DNA from: Bacteroidales bacterium
GTDB lineage: Bacteria > Bacteroidota > Bacteroidia > Bacteroidales > UBA1402
Assembly: GCA_017468435.1 (NCBI GenBank)
Contig: JAFUIP010000009.1
Coordinates: 1 to 64,000 of the forward strand
Reading direction: 5' to 3'
Length of the DNA stretch: 64,000 nt
Part shown: positions 30,378-38,697 of the stretch, piece by piece
How the letters are laid out: each line of letters opens with the position of its first letter
Numbering within the stretch: position 1 is the first letter of the stretch
Notes under the pieces: generated by a model
Databases searched by the model: none
Told to the model about the DNA's origin: nothing
The model's input: only the letters and a program-made list of their open reading frames with translations
Translations under genes and position numbers: made by a program

Positions 30378-31646
30378 TTATTTCACACGTTTCACCAAAT
30401 CGTGGGCCACGCGCATGGCATTTTCCTTGATTTCGTCTTCGTGAGGCACTACATGGTTTTCCATCAGGAAACGTCCGTTGCACAAAACACTTTCTATGGC
30501 GGAGCTGTCGGCGGCATACACCCAGTTGGACACTAAATGATGGTTGGGAATGAGCCTGTCGTTAGACAAATCCACGATAATGGCATCGGCCAATTTTCCT
30601 TCGGCAATCTCACCGGCATTCAAACCGAAAGCACGCGCCGCATCGACGGTGGCCCACTGTAAAACCTTGTCGGCAGGCAAGGCCTCGGCACCATAACGAA
30701 CCTTGGCCATCAGGGCGGCAAACTTCATTTCTTCGCGCATATCCAGATTGTTGTTGGAAGACACACCATCGGTGCCCAAAATCACCTTCAATTCATTATC
30801 TATCAAATTTTTAGAAGGAAAGATTCCGGAAGCCAGCTTCATATTGGAACAAGGATTATGCACCAACACCGAAGCGCTTTCCTTGAGCAAATCCATATCA
30901 TGTTGCGACAACCAGACAGAATGCGCCAAAATGGTTTTCGGCCCCAAAAGACCCAAGGAATGCAGATACTCGGTGGGCGTCATACCATGCTGCGAAAGAC
31001 AATCTTTCACTTCCTGTTCGGTTTCTGCCAAGTGTATATGCAAGAAAGTATCCGATTCGCGCGCCACTTCCGCACAACGTTTCAACATATCTTCGCCCAC
31101 CGTATAAATAGCATGAGGCGCCACTGCAAAACGCAGCATATCAGTGTTTTTAGATTGTTGAGCCTTGCATTTGGCAATATACTTATCCTTATACGATTCG
31201 CTTCCATGGTCAATGAAACTATCAGCCACGACGGCACGGAGACCCATTTCTTCGACAGCCGACATACACTCATCCCAAGAAAAATACATATCGTTAAAGA
31301 AAACCGTACCGGTTTTTATCATTTCCAATATCGCCAGCTTGACTCCGTGATACATGTCTTCGCTCGTCATTTTGGCTTCGATGGGCCAGATATGTTCGTT
31401 CAACCACAGCGACAGAGGCATATCGTCGGCATAACCGCGCAAGAGGTTCATGGCCGCGTGCGTGTGTCCGTTGTAGAAAGCCGGAAGAATGGCTTTTCCT
31501 TTACATTCCACCACTTTGAGTGGCGAATAGCCGGCGTAGTTTTCGAGCGCTTCGCTTTCCTTGATGGAGGCAAATTGATTCCCTTGAATGAGAATATCTT
31601 GCTCTTTTCCTTGATGCCAGATCTGATGTAGAAGAATGCTTGTCAT
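30378..31646 (-). CDS. mtaD: MTA/SAH-type amidohydrolase deaminase
   Basis: The ATG at 31646 gives 422 residues. It is an amidohydrolase of the TrzN/MtaD group: GHTHAAMNLLRG has the metal His61 and His63, HIHLAETEQE the third His, and GTDGVSSNNNLDM the metal Asp with the SSNN motif of 5'-methylthioadenosine/S-adenosylhomocysteine deaminases. It would deaminate the adenine ring of MTA, SAH or a related nucleoside; aminodeoxyfutalosine deaminase (menaquinone route) is a close alternative. It is preceded by a structured leader ending in an intrinsic terminator 42 nt before the ATG, so readthrough probably sets its expression. Confidence 0.88.
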   Translation of the reverse strand: MTSILLHQIWHQGKEQDILIQGNQFASIKESEALENYAGYSPLKVVECKGKAILPAFYNGHTHAAMNLLRGYADDMPLSLWLNEHIWPIEAKMTSEDMYHGVKLAILEMIKTGTVFFNDMYFSWDECMSAVEEMGLRAVVADSFIDHGSESYKDKYIAKCKAQQSKNTDMLRFAVAPHAIYTVGEDMLKRCAEVARESDTFLHIHLAETEQEVKDCLSQHGMTPTEYLHSLGLLGPKTILAHSVWLSQHDMDLLKESASVLVHNPCSNMKLASGIFPSKNLIDNELKVILGTDGVSSNNNLDMREEMKFAALMAKVRYGAEALPADKVLQWATVDAARAFGLNAGEIAEGKLADAIIVDLSNDRLIPNHHLVSNWVYAADSSAIESVLCNGRFLMENHVVPHEDEIKENAMRVAHDLVKRVK

Positions 31647-31687
31647 ACGTATCGAATTTGAGAATGAATATGTATAAAATAAAAAAG

Positions 31688-31723
31688 CGTAAAGATAAGG
31701 CAAAAATTGCCACTATCTTCACG
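31688..31723 (-). terminator. Intrinsic terminator in the mtaD leader
   Basis: CGTGAAGATA pairs with TATCTTTACG (one G-U), with an inner GGCAA/TTGCC around a 3-nt loop, followed on the minus strand by C, six T, A, four T. It ends about 30-40 nt before the mtaD ATG and would stop transcripts from the promoter at 31874-31903. Confidence 0.75.
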
Positions 31724-31856
31724 TTTGGAAATATATTGAGATAAATGTATTTAATATAGATTTCATAAAGATCAGCAAGGGAGACTCACTTTTACAATCT
31801 TTACCTAACAACTTAACTACTAACTTTTTACAACTTTCCCTCGCTTGGGAAATCAT
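31719..31856 (-). CDS. Possible leader peptide, 45 aa
   Basis: An ATG at 31856 opens MISQARESCKKLVVKLLGKD followed by CKSESPLLIF and ends at a TGA (31719-31721) that lies inside the 5' arm of the terminator stem. A longer version starts at 31925, but that ATG is upstream of the promoter. No Shine-Dalgarno site beyond AAGG. The frame overlaps paired regions of the leader RNA, so it may be chance; if translated, a ribosome at the stop codon would open the terminator. Confidence 0.3.
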   Translation of the reverse strand: MISQARESCKKLVVKLLGKDCKSESPLLIFMKSILNTFISIYFQT

Positions 31857-31868
31857 CCTTATGAAATC
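31759..31868 (-). ncRNA. Structured leader RNA upstream of mtaD
   Basis: Starting about five bases after the -7 box, GATTTCATAAGGAT (31855-31868) pairs with ATCTTTATGAAATC (31759-31772) over 14 bp with a single G-U. Inside it, AGCGAGGGA (31837-31845) pairs with TCCCTTGCT (31774-31782), again with one G-U. The latter competes with a local TTTCCC/GGGAAA hairpin (31835-31852), so two folds are possible. The enclosed 50-odd nt contain no C. A terminator follows at 31688-31723. Promoter, folded domain, terminator and gene give the layout of a riboswitch or attenuator; an independent small RNA is the alternative. I do not recognise a known class. Confidence 0.6.
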
Positions 31869-31873
31869 GGGTG

Positions 31874-31903
31874 CAAAAGTACTACATTTTTTATAATTGA
31901 CAA
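31874..31903 (-). promoter_or_regulatory. Promoter of the mtaD leader RNA
   Basis: TTG (31901-31903), 19-nt spacer, TACTTTTG (31874-31881): a full Bacteroidota promoter about 228 nt before mtaD. Confidence 0.75.
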
Positions 31904-31933
31904 GTATTTTTTGAAAAATTTTCAAAATAAAAA

Positions 31934-31970
31934 CATTCGCCTGATAACCAACAGATTACCAGGCGAAATG
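31934..31970 (-). terminator. Terminator of the large pectin operon
   Basis: CATTTCGCCTG pairs with CAGGCGAATG (one bulge), followed on the minus strand by GTTTTTATTTT. It lies 38 nt after the PL9 stop. Confidence 0.8.
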
Positions 31971-32008: not shown

Positions 32009-34783
32009 TTATTGAAGCATCAAACGAGTAGCCAATGGCTTGGATAATCCCTTCAACTGAAGCAAATAGGCGCCTTTTTTCAAGTTTGAAATATCGAAAG
32101 GCAGGCTATAATCGGCACCGGCCACGGTCTGAATGTCGTACAGATTGGCCAACAAACGACCTTGCATATCGTACAGTTGCAAAGAAACCTTGGCTGCCAC
32201 AGGGGTAGAGAATTGAACCATCGCCTGAGAAGCGTGCTCGGCCGCACTCACTTTCAACGAAGCCTCGGCACGGTGATTGAGAATGAGCTGCGGCACCTGA
32301 AGTACCTCGCCTTCTTCCAATTCGTAAGGGCCGATATCGGGAGCCGAGCCATACAAGGTTTGCGCAATGAACGGAAACTCGTCGGTAAAGGGCATCTCCT
32401 GATAAATACCCGCATCAATCAATTTGCTGCCGGATTTCAATCGAGCAAAACGTTTGGGCAGACTTCCGTCCTCGCCGCGGGGAGCCTTGGCATCTTCTTC
32501 GCTCAAGCTGACATAGTCGGCAGCCGAAATACCTGTTTGCAAATTGTTCTTCCATCCCTTGTCGGTAGCTGTTCCAATCGCATTGTGGCTTTCCTTTCCG
32601 CCGGCAATTTCCTGACGACCCAAACAAACATTGTTGTAATATTCACTGTTGCTGCTGGCGCGTTCGAACATAAAATCGTAACCGTTGCCGAAGGCCAAGC
32701 AATTCACCAACTTTTCACCATCGGAGTGGCTGTTTTGGTCGAAGCCCTTCACCGAACCACTCTTGTCGCAGTTGAAAGCCACACAACGCCAAGCTTCATG
32801 TTTACCTTTAGAGCTTCCGCCGGTACCATTTCCGCCCATCTTGATGGCATTGCCATTGCCTGAAAATCCGTGGGACACTGCCACCACATCGCGCACCCAT
32901 TCATGGTCTTCAGCCTTTCCGGAACGCCAAGCCCAACACTCGATCAAGATAACGGGATAATCGGTTTCGTACAAGTCCCAGGCATCGTCGGAGTTTTCCC
33001 AAGCGCGGCAACGGATAAAGCGATTGCCTTTTCCATTGTGCATTTTGCAGGCAAAACCATCGGCATCGGAGCCGTAATTGGTGTCGTAATCGCAGTTACG
33101 GTAAGAATCACAATCGACAATATCGTTGTAGGCGCACCAAGAACCATCGTTCGAAGAGCCGTGGCCGCTGTCGGAGAAATCATGGCCGAAACCCAATTGC
33201 AAGCCGGTATCGAAATTGTAACTGAACGTGCATGAACGAATCAGGTTGTGGCTTCCTTCCAATTTGATGGCATTGTCGCCGGCTCTCGTAAAGTGAATAC
33301 CGATGATGTGCCAATAATTACCCGTCAGCAAGACACCGCGTTGTCCGTTCAGTTGGGGTTGCTGCGACTTGAAGTTCATCACGGGCATTTCATCTTCGTA
33401 AGCCATGATGGTGATGGGGTCTTCTGCTGTTCCCGAAGTACTGATGCGAACCGTCGTTTTGCTGCCGTCTTTCATCATATCGGGAAAATATTCTCCACCG
33501 CGACAATAAATAATGTCGCCAGGAAGTGCCACATCCACCGCCTTCTGCAGATTGTACCAGGGAGATTCCATGGATCCGTCGCCCATATCGTCGCTGCCAT
33601 TGGGAGCCAAGAAATAAATATGATTGTCTTTCTCTGCACCCTGCCCTTTCAAAAGCATCTTACAAGAAAGTTCTCCAAGGCTTACGGTAAGAGTATCTTG
33701 GTAAAGCTTATATTCTTCGGGGCTGAAACTTAGGGTCAACACCTTAGAAAACGCTGTTGTATCTACTTCTATGACAGATGGTTCCACCGTGAAAAATTCA
33801 CTATTCGTATAACATTCCAAGGCTTTGACATCCTTCGGAAGATACTTGGCCTTCAAGGTGACGTTCATAGATTTGCTCGAAGCCAACTTCGTATTCTTGA
33901 AATCGAGCTGAGACTTTGAAAGCGTCAGGCTAGGTACTTCCAGGGTTCCTTGGGTAAGAGAAAATCCCGGTGTCAGATAATTGCGATCGGCGCCATCGCC
34001 ATTGTATTCAAAAATGCTAAAACGATAATTTTCACCGGCTTCCAAAGAAGAAACGCGTATGGTGTCGGCATCGTCGCTGGCAATGATCCAGGTGTCGGCA
34101 TCTATGGTTTTCGGAAAGGAGCCCGTGTAGGCATATCCATCTTCGGGCAACCAGGGCTCGGCACTTTCTTTCTGGCAAAGCAACAATCGTCCTTGGCCAT
34201 CGCCTTTTTGAATACTCAGCACCAAATCGTTTCCACTCAGCATAGGCGTGGAATCGGACTGCAAAGCCAAACGCATGGCTGCTTGTTGCTTGGGCTGGGC
34301 CGCCATGGTGGAATACGAAATGCTCACATTGTCTATATAGACGGTGGCATTGGCACAACGGAATCGAAAGAGCACATTGTCCTCGTCATCGGCTTTCAAG
34401 GCCGCAGAAGCCTGTACGAAAGAGCCGGAACCCGACTTGAACGACTGCAGAATCTGCCAGGTCTGGCCGCCGTCTGTGGATTTTTCCACATAGAGATCTT
34501 TGTAATTGCCGCTGGCCTTGTGCGAGAAACTCATCACCGAAGCCTTGCTGATGGCCGGTGTGGTAAGTGTGGCACCGGAAGTGTTCATACGCGCCACCGC
34601 GTTGCCGTTTTGCGTACTGGCACAAACGCCTTGAATGCTCCATTCACCCGAGGATAGATTCACTTTGGTCTCTGTAGCCGGCGCAGAAGAAGGCAAACCT
34701 TTAGAAAAATCTTCCACAAAATCGGCTGCGCACAACGACACCGACGACAGCCAAAGCATCGCCAAAAGCAGGTTAGTTTTCAT
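32009..34783 (-). CDS. Secreted PL9 pectate lyase with T9SS sorting domain
   Basis: The 924-residue protein has a signal peptide (MKTNLLLAMLWLSSVSLCAA), a beta-sandwich (about 21-160), fibronectin/Ig-like segments (about 160-385), a right-handed beta helix (about 388-800) and a C-terminal type IX secretion domain (850-924, VSLQLYDMQGRLL ... KKGAYLLQL). Family PL9 is shown by the calcium-site acids D573, D575, D599, D600 and D603 (GSDADGFA, NSDDAWDLYE) and the catalytic Lys K648 in GNAIKMGGNG. It cleaves polygalacturonate by beta-elimination, outside the cell. It is the last gene of the 51173-32009 operon, 12 nt after the GH141-like gene. It is the only enzyme of the locus with a visible T9SS domain, so it should act first, on whole polymer. 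Confidence 0.9.
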   Translation of the reverse strand: MKTNLLLAMLWLSSVSLCAADFVEDFSKGLPSSAPATETKVNLSSGEWSIQGVCASTQNGNAVARMNTSGATLTTPAISKASVMSFSHKASGNYKDLYVEKSTDGGQTWQILQSFKSGSGSFVQASAALKADDEDNVLFRFRCANATVYIDNVSISYSTMAAQPKQQAAMRLALQSDSTPMLSGNDLVLSIQKGDGQGRLLLCQKESAEPWLPEDGYAYTGSFPKTIDADTWIIASDDADTIRVSSLEAGENYRFSIFEYNGDGADRNYLTPGFSLTQGTLEVPSLTLSKSQLDFKNTKLASSKSMNVTLKAKYLPKDVKALECYTNSEFFTVEPSVIEVDTTAFSKVLTLSFSPEEYKLYQDTLTVSLGELSCKMLLKGQGAEKDNHIYFLAPNGSDDMGDGSMESPWYNLQKAVDVALPGDIIYCRGGEYFPDMMKDGSKTTVRISTSGTAEDPITIMAYEDEMPVMNFKSQQPQLNGQRGVLLTGNYWHIIGIHFTRAGDNAIKLEGSHNLIRSCTFSYNFDTGLQLGFGHDFSDSGHGSSNDGSWCAYNDIVDCDSYRNCDYDTNYGSDADGFACKMHNGKGNRFIRCRAWENSDDAWDLYETDYPVILIECWAWRSGKAEDHEWVRDVVAVSHGFSGNGNAIKMGGNGTGGSSKGKHEAWRCVAFNCDKSGSVKGFDQNSHSDGEKLVNCLAFGNGYDFMFERASSNSEYYNNVCLGRQEIAGGKESHNAIGTATDKGWKNNLQTGISAADYVSLSEEDAKAPRGEDGSLPKRFARLKSGSKLIDAGIYQEMPFTDEFPFIAQTLYGSAPDIGPYELEEGEVLQVPQLILNHRAEASLKVSAAEHASQAMVQFSTPVAAKVSLQLYDMQGRLLANLYDIQTVAGADYSLPFDISNLKKGAYLLQLKGLSKPLATRLMLQ

Positions 34784-34795
34784 CGTAAATAAAAA

Positions 34796-36637
34796 TTATT
34801 GTCTTTTTCTTTGTCCGGCGCGAGCCTTGATTTCCTCGCTCACCATCGGACCATTGTTTTCCCAAGTATTACCCGGACCATTGGCATTCTGCAAGAATTT
34901 TTCCGCAGGACACCAGTTGTCTTTCACCATCATGAAGGAAGAGCCCTCGTCGGTGTAGAGATAAAACCAATGATGCGGATCGTGCACATACCATGGCGTA
35001 TAGATGCTGTCCACCACGTTTTCCACAATGGTCGTTTTAGGCTGGGCAGACAGAGTGTAGATACCTGCCACATCGTACATATGCTTGGCGTAATGATGGA
35101 TGTAATTGCCTTTCACCACATTTTCACGCATGCAATTGAGCGCTTTCTGCCAACCCCATCCCAAGCTGATGCCGGAATAAGATACCTCGCTGATTTCGTT
35201 GTATTCGATGGTGGCGTTACGCACATAGCCGGCACAAATAGCCACACAGCCCCAATCTTCGTTGGTAATATCGTGGAGAATGTTGTCACCTATATAAAGA
35301 TGTGTACAAAGCTCGCGCGTATCTTTCGGATCGTAAGGCAAATGACTTTCGGTACCTATATCGGAGAAACGTCCGGCCTGAATGGCATTACCGCCCACAT
35401 CTTCGAAATGACAATAGATGATGCTGTCGTAGGCCGTATTTTCTACATAATCGATGGCACAAGATGCCATGTGCTCGAAACGACAATTGTCGAAAGCCGT
35501 ATGACTGACCGATTGCAAACGCACTGCCGCTGCGGGACGTCCCAGCCAGGCCTGATTCTCCAAGCCTTTGTTAGGATTGCCGGGCACACCGTGAGGACGC
35601 AATTTATAGGCATCCAGCAGATACATACCGGCTTGCAAAGGCACATGACCTTGTTCGGAGGGACGCATCCAAGTGGTATGGCGGAAGGAGATATTCTCGA
35701 AACGGATATGAGAAACGGAACTTTCCTTACTACCTTGAACATCGACAAGGTTTTCCAGATAAGGAACGATGGCCTCAGCCTTGCTCATCACTTCTCCCTT
35801 GCGCGGCCAATAATACAACAAATGTTTGTCTTCGTCGAGATACCATTCGCCGGGCATATCCAAAAATTCGATGGCATTGCACATATAATAAGGAGACTCC
35901 ACGCCTTTTACCGTCATGGGACAAGGCCAGGGATGTTCTGCTTGAATACGGCTTTCCGGTTGATGAAAACGCACTTCGGTGGAATCAGCATTTCGGGTGA
36001 GCGAAGCCACTCTCAAATTGGCAATGGCCCACATCTGATGCAATACAAGTTCCACACCGTCAAGGGTTTGGAATTCTTTCACCTTGGGCGTGGGAATGGT
36101 CAGCACTTGTTGATGTTTATCCCAAGCCAACATTCGTTTCATATCGTCGAAGTCGTTCACGTCGCGAGCGCGTACAGCCTTTTGACCATTCACCCACAAC
36201 TGACGGAAACTCAGATAGCGACCGGCCACCTTGGGCTGCGGACAAACATACACTTTCGACTGAGCTACTGCGGGCAATCCGGGCACTCTTGAAGCCTTTT
36301 TCCAAGATTTGGCAGGCAAGACTCGTCCACCGCTCAAGACGGTTTGTCCATTGGCAGCACCGCGGATAATGGTAGGACTCTGGGCCGTTCCGGAATCTTC
36401 GGGTCTAAGAAAAACTGCCTCATCCAAAAAGAACTGACCGGCCGGCAATTCTATGATAACGCCTTTGCTCAGATCCACTCCGGTAGATTTGCCTACATTT
36501 TCCAATCGACGCCATTCCCTGACAGTACGTATGGCCTGATGAACATCCGAACAATCTTCTCCAAGTTGAAGAATGGTCTGCGCACCAAGACTCCAAGACA
36601 TGGCAATCAATAAAACGATAATGAAACTTTTTTTCAT
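34796..36637 (-). CDS. Secreted beta-helix glycosidase, GH141-like
   Basis: The ATG at 36637 opens a signal peptide (MKKSFIIVLLIAMSWSLGAQ), 613 residues in all. It is a right-handed parallel beta helix with an inserted beta-sandwich near 150-270 (RQLWVNGQKAVRARDVNDFD), then repeats rich in Asn and Tyr (SYSGISLGWGW, ENVVKGNYIHHYAKHMYDVAGIYTL). This layout and the LWVNGxKAxRAR motif fit family GH141, whose RG-II member in B. thetaiotaomicron is an alpha-L-fucosidase; xylanase activity is also known there. Family label from memory. It lies between the propeller-TIM fusion (71 nt, with hairpin) and the PL9 gene (12 nt). Confidence 0.75.
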   Translation of the reverse strand: MKKSFIIVLLIAMSWSLGAQTILQLGEDCSDVHQAIRTVREWRRLENVGKSTGVDLSKGVIIELPAGQFFLDEAVFLRPEDSGTAQSPTIIRGAANGQTVLSGGRVLPAKSWKKASRVPGLPAVAQSKVYVCPQPKVAGRYLSFRQLWVNGQKAVRARDVNDFDDMKRMLAWDKHQQVLTIPTPKVKEFQTLDGVELVLHQMWAIANLRVASLTRNADSTEVRFHQPESRIQAEHPWPCPMTVKGVESPYYMCNAIEFLDMPGEWYLDEDKHLLYYWPRKGEVMSKAEAIVPYLENLVDVQGSKESSVSHIRFENISFRHTTWMRPSEQGHVPLQAGMYLLDAYKLRPHGVPGNPNKGLENQAWLGRPAAAVRLQSVSHTAFDNCRFEHMASCAIDYVENTAYDSIIYCHFEDVGGNAIQAGRFSDIGTESHLPYDPKDTRELCTHLYIGDNILHDITNEDWGCVAICAGYVRNATIEYNEISEVSYSGISLGWGWQKALNCMRENVVKGNYIHHYAKHMYDVAGIYTLSAQPKTTIVENVVDSIYTPWYVHDPHHWFYLYTDEGSSFMMVKDNWCPAEKFLQNANGPGNTWENNGPMVSEEIKARAGQRKRQ

Positions 36638-36660
36638 GATGATATCCGTAAGAGATGAAG

Positions 36661-36697
36661 CGGCCCGCCTCTGCAACTTCGTTGCGCCGGCGGGCCG
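36661..36697 (-). terminator. Strong intergenic hairpin inside the operon
   Basis: CGGCCCGCC pairs with GGCGGGCCG, and an inner GCAAC/GTTGC stem is stacked within. There is no T run after it. It lies between the fusion gene and the GH141-like gene and probably stabilises or partly ends the upstream mRNA rather than closing the operon. Confidence 0.5.
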
Positions 36698-36708
36698 ACC
36701 CATAATAA

Positions 36709-38697
36709 TTATTCAGGTTGGAAAATTGATTTCAGATAAGTACAGTTGGCGGTATAATTGCCTCTGACATTGCGAACCTGCGAGGCATCGCGCGAGCGTT
36801 CCATTACCAAGTAGCCATGATAACCGATTTCTTCCAAAGTCTTCTTGATGGCCGGCATATCTACTTGCGGATCGTTCTGCAACCATTGTCCGTCGGTATT
36901 GGTACAGTGAATCTGGCAAATATTCTCGGCACCCAATGTGCGCAATTCCTGGTGAATGTCTCGATTGTTCTTCCAGGCATTGGCGAAATTGTAGTAAATC
37001 TTGATGGCCGGTGAATTCACTTCTTTCAGCAAGGCCAAATCGCCCTGAGCATCCATCGTGGTTTCTATACCGATAATCACATTGGCAGCCTCAGCCATCT
37101 TTCCAACTTCTCTTAAACGGGTAACCACCGCGGGATACAGTTCAGGATTCTTCACCACATCGCTATTCACGCCCAAAGGCAAGAATGCCACTTTGGCGCC
37201 CAAACCCTTCATCACTTCGATACAGTCGGCCACAGGCTGAATATAGCTTTCGCGGGTGGCAAAAGACTGAGCATAAAAACCGGACATGGCCACCGAAGCA
37301 ATCTTCACACCACTCTGAGCAGCCAAACGCTTGTACGACTGCAAAGCTTCGGGATTATCCTTGAAACGACTCTGGAAAGTAGGATGCGAGCTCAATGAAT
37401 TCATATCCACTTCGATACCGTTACAACCGATGATTCTTGCCAAAGGAATGGCCGATTCTTTCTGACGTTTGAGAATCATCCAATCGCAAACGGCAATGGG
37501 GAAACGAGTTTCTCCGGCGCCTTCCACGGCCAAAGGCGTATCATGACCCGGCCAGCAAAGGTCTTTTATCTTCACCATCTGCATTTTCTTAGGATCTACC
37601 TTCACATATTTCATGCGTTCACGACGCCAGGTGTAAAGAATATGGATATAACCATCAGAACCCTGAATAACAGCCGGATATGAATACTGACTGATGGGAG
37701 AATCTTCCAACACCAAAGAAGCATACCAATGGATACCATCTTTAGACAAAGCTACATTCAAGGGCGTACGGGCTCCCTTAAACTTGTCGCCATCGGGCAA
37801 TACGTGATTATATACCAACAAATGACGGCCGTCTTGCAAGGTAACGGCATCCGTTCCGGAGTTGTTCTGAGGCAATTCCAAACTATCGAGTTTGCTCCAG
37901 GTTGCACCGCCATCACTCGACCAGGTGGTACCTACGCGACGATTGCGGGTGCGGAATACCATCTGCAAATCGCCATTCTTATGCTTGAGAATACTGGGCT
38001 GGATTGCCAACCAAGGGGCTCTTTCGTTGATAGGACCCACCTGACGCCAAGTTTTACCATAATCGGGAGTGATATCCAAGAACAAGCGCCATCCATTACC
38101 TTCCTGGCTCGATGGACAAACCAATTCACCATTGATCATTTCGGGTTTGTTCTTTACCGGACCTATAATGCCATCGGGCAAGGTATCGGGTTTAGACCAA
38201 GTATGACCATTGTCGGATGAGCGAATCAAACGACCTTTCCAAGAACTTGGATGGGCACCCACTTTATAGAAAAGCAGCAAATCGCCACCGGGAATCTGGT
38301 ACAACACAGGATTCCAGCACGGATAACGTTCCACGCTGCCGGCTTCGGGCCAATATCCGGGATCTTCGGCCAAAATACATTCAGCCACCTTTTCGGGAGC
38401 TTGCCAAACATCACTTCCCTTAGGTTTGCGCGATACATAAATACTCACATCGGGGAAACGTTCCTTGGTACCACCGAAATAAGTGGCAATCAAACCTTCG
38501 GGCGTTTCGGCCAATGAGGCAGAGTGACATTCGGCAAAGTCGGCCTTTTCATACAAGAACTGACTTTCTACGATACCCTTTTTCCAATCGTACTCATTGT
38601 TGTTGATGAAAAACATCACAACGGCCATTGCCAAAAAGAACAAGCCGATAATCAGGCAACAACATGAGCATTTTTTCATACATTGTTTCTTTTCCAT
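36709..38697 (-). CDS. Sialidase-type beta-propeller fused to xylose-isomerase-like TIM barrel
   Basis: The 662-residue protein has a Cys-rich membrane anchor (about 8-31, CSCCCLIIGLFFLAMAVVMFF) and no clear cleavage site. Residues 40-375 form a sialidase-like propeller with Asp boxes at 160-167 (SSDNGHTW), 210-217 (TPDYGKTW), 260-267 (SSDGGATW) and 318-324 (SKDGIHW). Residues 400-660 are an AP-endonuclease-2/xylose-isomerase-like barrel (FQSRFKD, IGIETTM, QIHCTNTDGQW, YLVMERS). The usual second metal ligand region reads YYNFANA, with Asn where Asp is common. The propeller may hydrolyse a ketosidic or other acidic sugar bond and the barrel may isomerise or epimerise the product; both are inference. 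It sits in the RG-II-like operon, 7 nt after the GH140 gene. An alternative start is at 38679. Confidence 0.8.
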   Translation of the reverse strand: MEKKQCMKKCSCCCLIIGLFFLAMAVVMFFINNNEYDWKKGIVESQFLYEKADFAECHSASLAETPEGLIATYFGGTKERFPDVSIYVSRKPKGSDVWQAPEKVAECILAEDPGYWPEAGSVERYPCWNPVLYQIPGGDLLLFYKVGAHPSSWKGRLIRSSDNGHTWSKPDTLPDGIIGPVKNKPEMINGELVCPSSQEGNGWRLFLDITPDYGKTWRQVGPINERAPWLAIQPSILKHKNGDLQMVFRTRNRRVGTTWSSDGGATWSKLDSLELPQNNSGTDAVTLQDGRHLLVYNHVLPDGDKFKGARTPLNVALSKDGIHWYASLVLEDSPISQYSYPAVIQGSDGYIHILYTWRRERMKYVKVDPKKMQMVKIKDLCWPGHDTPLAVEGAGETRFPIAVCDWMILKRQKESAIPLARIIGCNGIEVDMNSLSSHPTFQSRFKDNPEALQSYKRLAAQSGVKIASVAMSGFYAQSFATRESYIQPVADCIEVMKGLGAKVAFLPLGVNSDVVKNPELYPAVVTRLREVGKMAEAANVIIGIETTMDAQGDLALLKEVNSPAIKIYYNFANAWKNNRDIHQELRTLGAENICQIHCTNTDGQWLQNDPQVDMPAIKKTLEEIGYHGYLVMERSRDASQVRNVRGNYTANCTYLKSIFQPE

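Follow-up and report, generated by a model that had tools for sequence, protein, structure and literature searches.

What kind of RNA lies ahead of an amidohydrolase gene is the question raised by a short intergenic element on the minus strand of the window, the whole 64,000-nucleotide stretch of Bacteroidales DNA analysed here. The initial annotation read the element as a structured leader with the layout of a riboswitch or attenuator, placed before an MTA/SAH deaminase gene. The reading preferred here, to which we assign about even probability, is a strongly transcribed RNA of approximately 190 nt that is normally terminated, with read-through into the amidohydrolase gene and regulation of that gene possible. 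In any of these readings, the element is a conserved, structured RNA candidate in a little-studied Bacteroidales lineage.

Layout and fold of the element

The promoter, two helices (P1 and P2), local hairpin, C-free run and terminator that the annotation had described were all found on the minus strand where it had placed them. The promoter (31874-31903) consists of TTG at 31903-31901, a spacer of 19 nt and TACTTTTG at 31881-31874, followed by CACCCG. P1 is a 14-nt helix formed by segment 1, GATTTCATAAGGAT (31868-31855), and segment 2, ATCTTTATGAAATC (31772-31759); its pairs are 93% Watson-Crick and the rest G-U, in line with the claim that differences between the helix arms are G-U compatible. 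P2 comprises 9 bp between AGCGAGGGA (31845-31837) and TCCCTTGCT (31782-31774). The 3′ portion of its 5′ strand doubles as a strand of the local hairpin, a competitor of P2 in which TTTCCC (31852-31847) pairs with GGGAAA (31840-31835).

The inner segment without C, originally put at about 55 nt, measures 59 nt (31842-31784, minus strand). Runs of at least 55 nt that lack C or G occur three times in 464 kb of the window's own genome (G000) and once in 396 kb of a second genome of the same genus (G002); the run in the RNA is one of the three, because the G000 sample includes the window. Its central 40 nt (31830-31791), the loop core, show 100% identity to G002 and are predicted to be largely unpaired except for a weak apical hairpin. 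Pairing of the loop core with the 3′ spacer is weaker than with shuffled spacers.

Segments 3 and 4 form an intrinsic terminator hairpin of −17.8 kcal/mol (31723-31688), followed by the T tract TTTTTTATTTTA (31686-31675, including TTTTTT at 31686-31681). The terminator stem ends 41 nt before the ATG of the neighbouring gene (31646-31644). About 75 nt of RNA extend beyond P1, and the 5′ and 3′ ends are not paired with each other. On the other side, the upstream gene has a terminator of its own (31967-31936, minus strand), which isolates the RNA unit.

The element folds more stably than its composition predicts, with z = −4.36 in G000, where none of 200 dinucleotide shuffles equalled it, and z = −4.49 for the 5′ domain by itself. 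The G002 homologue gives z = −4.33, again with no shuffle of 200 as good, and a plus-strand control stretch of comparable kind gives z = −0.77. An Rfam search of the entire window at gathering scores returned only tRNAs, and a search of 31550-31960 at E ≤ 10 returned eight matches, all far below gathering scores. The annotation had recognised no RNA class here, and the Rfam search likewise gave no family match: the RNA is a structured candidate outside all 4227 Rfam families.

Conservation in one relative and the competing helices

Blastn finds the RNA in two of six genus genomes, G000 and G002, the latter recorded as a metagenome-assembled genome from dairy-cattle colon. In G002 it occupies the same position, before the same gene. 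The same two are its only carriers among 13 family genomes, by blastn and likewise by covariance model. Across 393 genomes of the order, blastn found two at comparable strength, and four other order genomes gave short promoter-like or chance matches only. The covariance model R1, run on 295 order genomes, also places the RNA in two, with chance-level matches in five others (E 0.27-0.82). A further weak hit of the homologue searches overlaps the G002 copy on the opposite strand. No homologue came from collections of plasmids, phages and viruses. Single absences within the genus carry little weight because four of its genomes are only 70-83% complete; the RNA is also absent from family genomes of 93-99% completeness.

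The downstream gene provides the measure of divergence between G000 and G002. Its product is identical at 298 of 422 amino acids and its fourfold-degenerate sites at 60 of 117 (51%), and the longest identical run inside the gene is 23 nt. The RNA, by comparison, holds identical runs of 40 nt (the loop core), 34 nt and 33 nt (terminator plus flank). Pairs are unchanged at 12 of 13 positions in P1 and at all 14 in the terminator. In P2, six of nine pairs are unchanged, one is changed on one side and two on both sides, and all nine stay paired despite five changed positions. Sliding the partner strands against each other lowers pairing from 100% to 39-56%, and a pair-shuffle control, weak with two sequences only, attains the observed score in 125 of 500 shuffles. 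The alignment with relatives that the annotation had proposed as a check thus finds its helices kept in G002, the one homologue; the covariation statistics are thin because only two sequences are known.

A chance fold of AT-rich intergenic DNA, flanked by an ordinary promoter and terminator, would fit the base composition and the single homologue. However, the shuffles in both genomes, the three long identical runs set against 51% fourfold-site identity, and the full retention of P2 already disfavour it, leaving this explanation next to no probability.

P2 and the local hairpin behave as two mutually exclusive helices, for which the comparison of the two sequences gives moderate support. The middle strand differs between the genomes at alignment columns 39 and 40, and its hairpin partner and its P2 partner both carry compatible changes; these concerted changes on three strands support the competition that the annotation had proposed. 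In 200,000 trials with the substitutions randomised within strands, all nine P2 pairs are retained in 0.05%, and both helices survive together in 0.006%. If the observed columns are kept and just the new bases are drawn at random, the corresponding values are 6.6% and 1.7%. Prediction for the full 5′ domain puts the hairpin state at a disadvantage of 1.9 kcal/mol in G000 and 7.1 kcal/mol in G002, which makes the local hairpin a probable folding intermediate or minor state.

Promoter class, downstream gene and possible attenuation

The 14-nt promoter motif TACTTTTGCANCCG occurs at 31 sites in the six genus genomes, against none for the reversed pattern. The 30 loci that were read divide into 11 before tRNAs, eight at presumed rRNA-operon leaders, two at this RNA, six before protein genes (including, by eye, rpsP and rimP) and three inside coding sequence; the rRNA assignment is presumptive, as these leaders stand at contig ends and the 16S gene is not on the contig. 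A related pattern, TASTTTTGCANCCG, has six sites in G000, namely this RNA, three tRNA genes, and rpsP and rimP (both by eye). Judged by the genes it precedes, TACTTTTGCANCCG represents a stable-RNA promoter class of the genus that serves tRNA genes, translation genes such as the rpsP/rimP-like ones, and presumed rRNA leaders (loci L106, L108, L110, L109, L107 and L191). From this tRNA/rRNA class we infer strong, growth-linked transcription. At L107 and L191, a GC-rich conserved leader beginning GGAGGGCCC follows just after the promoter, before the rimP-like gene of G000 and G002.

The first gene past the RNA (30378-31646, minus strand) encodes an amidohydrolase of the MTA/SAH-deaminase superfamily with a match to PF01979. 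No NCBIfam model reaches its cut-off (the best scores 419.7 of 609 bits), so "mtaD" is a family-level label. The superfamily assignment of the annotation holds; the narrower identity as an MTA/SAH deaminase falls short, with 278.8 of 779 bits for that model. A protein search finds the gene in eight of 13 family genomes, and six of these eight have no such leader. By eye, the gene follows almost directly behind another reading frame in three of them (G003, G007 and G008), lies behind a gap of roughly 40-50 nt in two (G004 and G005), and in one (G006) starts about 20 nt after a simple promoter. A contig search with the protein returned 72 loci, of which only the one on the G002 contig (L018) was used. 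The genes upstream of the RNA (32009-38697, minus strand) resemble a polysaccharide-degradation cluster, with a PL9-like beta-helix protein carrying a weak T9SS sorting-domain match, a GH141-domain protein and a fusion of BNR repeats with a TIM barrel; in G002, by eye, no PL9-like gene separates the GH141-type gene from the RNA.

The strongest rival of the preferred reading is regulation of the amidohydrolase operon in cis by an attenuator or riboswitch, in which P1 plus the terminator would form the OFF state and opening of P1 would free segment 2 to pair with segment 3, allowing transcription to continue. We consider it possible, though doubtful. In both genomes, no upstream stretch pairs better with the terminator 5′ arm than the P1 3′ arm does (−11.4 and −11.6 kcal/mol), an energy matched by 17 and 10 of 300 shuffles, respectively. 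Against shuffled arms, the 2:3 pairing has p values of 0.010 and 0.009, which are not independent because the arms are nearly identical between the two genomes. With it, the element acquires the 1:2, 2:3, 3:4 topology of an attenuator. Placement also suits a cis-regulator: the same gene stands behind the leader in both RNA-bearing genomes, the upstream gene is terminated separately, and the sequence shows no second strong promoter. In addition, the exclusivity of P2 and the local hairpin survives changes on three strands, and the P1 and terminator pairs are almost invariant, beyond the need of a plain helix; an interlocked attenuator would explain that near-invariance.

The predicted energies run against attenuation. 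As the terminator 5′ arm emerges, the P1 state is ahead by about 6 kcal/mol (−33.6 versus −27.5 in G000; −33.0 versus −27.2 in G002). Once the terminator is complete, the minimum free energies are −49.2 and −50.4 kcal/mol; forcing the antiterminator raises them to −33.6 and −31.1, a margin of 15.6 and 19.3 kcal/mol. With P1 predicted to be the more stable of the two, the RNA should terminate by default without ligand, and reading on would therefore need a factor that opens P1. The tRNA/rRNA-type promoter and the six family genomes that have the gene but not the leader also count against a dedicated regulator of this gene.

Known leader classes resemble the element in part. Attenuators of the trp-leader type are built from 1:2, 2:3 and 3:4 segments, and the element shares with them four segments, predicted exclusive pairings and an intrinsic terminator just ahead of a gene. 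Unlike them, it has no conserved leader peptide and its 1:2 pairing is predicted to dominate. A leader peptide in the loop core was considered and rejected: the core frame is open in both genomes but has its ATG start in G000 alone, and conservation of the core extends to each nucleotide. Likewise, the only long ATG-started frame of the RNA in the window is not ATG-started in G002, which leaves no conserved reading frame. SAH, SAM, SAM/SAH and purine riboswitches share with the element a position before a nucleoside- or SAM-recycling-type gene and, potentially, a P1 3′ arm used in an antiterminator. They differ in that none of these families matches 31550-31960 even at E ≤ 10, and in that the element has no multi-helix junction and a ligand-free default of termination. 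The layout proposed in the annotation gains a candidate antiterminator with p of about 0.01 against shuffled arms, whereas its suggestion of ligand sensing finds no backing in the family searches, the default state, the promoter or the distribution of the leader.

Were attenuation true, MTA/SAH-type nucleoside recycling would gain a layer of RNA control; text searches of the literature gave no described leader for such recycling among the entries listed. A more elaborate version, which we regard as unlikely, is a new class of bistable leader RNA in which a tRNA/rRNA-type promoter feeds the nucleoside-deaminase operon through the attenuator. The invariant 40-nt C-free loop would then be the sensor, the local hairpin, P2, P1, antiterminator and terminator would be interlocked, and purine-nucleoside recycling would depend on growth rate or on a ligand or protein able to open P1.

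The preferred reading, a normally terminated RNA with read-through, treats default termination as the working state. A strong promoter of the stable-RNA type would drive the structured minus-strand RNA; the local hairpin would form first in the nascent transcript and be displaced as the P1/P2 rod closes, and the closed rod would present a conserved, mostly single-stranded C-free loop. Because transcription would end by default at the intrinsic terminator, the short RNA would be the main product and probably abundant. The amidohydrolase operon would be fed by read-through, perhaps aided by a weak candidate promoter inside the terminator (31704-31674, minus strand; TTTG-19-TATTTTAT), which has two mismatches to TAnnTTTG. 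The loop core is the likely functional site; its binding partner may be a protein or another RNA and, with lower probability, a ligand. In favour of this reading are the promoter class, which for a stand-alone RNA suggests growth-linked abundance, the RNA's own terminator, z values near −4.4 in both genomes and default termination, together with the invariant core, the lack of a conserved reading frame and the upstream terminator. Against it stand the small number of sequences (two), the position of the RNA before the same gene in both genomes, as expected of a cis-regulator, the near-invariant arms of P1 and terminator, and the absence of enrichment for core complements before translation starts in the sampled genome stretches.

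Possible 6S-like function and base-pairing targets

6S RNA is widespread and consists of a rod with a large internal loop and a rearranging 5′ hairpin. The element resembles 6S and 6S-Flavo (RF00013 and RF01685) in these respects, as well as in its length of about 190 nt and its stable-RNA promoter, and could be a diverged relative that binds RNA polymerase. No 6S-Flavo lies above cut-off in the six genus genomes, and the 6S RNA of this lineage may be undetected. In contrast to 6S, the ends of the element are not paired with each other and about 75 nt extend past P1, no promoter mimic (TAnnTTTG-like, by eye) is seen on the 3′ side of the loop, neither model matches 31550-31960 at E ≤ 10, and the RNA is absent from 11 of 13 family genomes. 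These differences make a 6S-like function very unlikely. A weak 6S-Flavo match in G000, at C24, was set aside; by eye it looks like coding sequence. In B. thetaiotaomicron, 6S and its product RNAs are reported (PMC7366714).

A trans-acting small RNA that uses its C-free loop to pair with the 5′ leaders of mRNAs, in the way of Bacteroides FopS and GibS, has a small chance of being correct. FopS RNAs are reported to be about 65-70 nt long, with a 5′ seed that is single-stranded, and to have 14 paralogues (PMC11697453). The element is likewise intergenic with a terminator, and it might pair with a SusC-type leader; it differs in its length of about 190 nt, single copy, large 5′ fold and putative targets. 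The sequence elements of an independent promoter and intrinsic terminator are present, and the loop core is conserved as a seed would be, but candidate leaders are few and target enrichment is absent. Among 343 gene starts in the sampled genome stretches, each having 30 nt or more of intergenic DNA, 8-mer complements of the core precede 20 genes versus 23.7 in shuffles, and 9-mer complements six genes versus 7.2. A duplex-energy search in G000 scored starts slightly better than shuffles; interior coding sequence likewise scored better than shuffles, so duplex energy gives no specific target signal in that genome.

One complement of part of the loop core, the 11-mer CTAACTTTTTA, has 11 sites in the six genus genomes, compared with 28 for the reverse pattern. 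Two of the sites are the RNA itself, and seven of the nine others lie 21-25 nt before an ATG (L201, L202, L194, L195, L197, L198 and L200), a placement that speaks for targeting. These seven represent at least four gene families, and five belong to genomes in which the RNA was not found. The same holds for the leaders that pair best (−30 kcal/mol), and CTAACTTTTTA therefore looks like a generic 5′-leader motif, possibly a translation-related one of the lineage rather than a target set. A SusC-type plug-domain gene (by eye) carries CTAACTTTTTA in both RNA-bearing genomes, where its duplex ranks tenth among 347 in G000 and 64th among 287 in G002, and this gene may serve as a lead to a candidate target.
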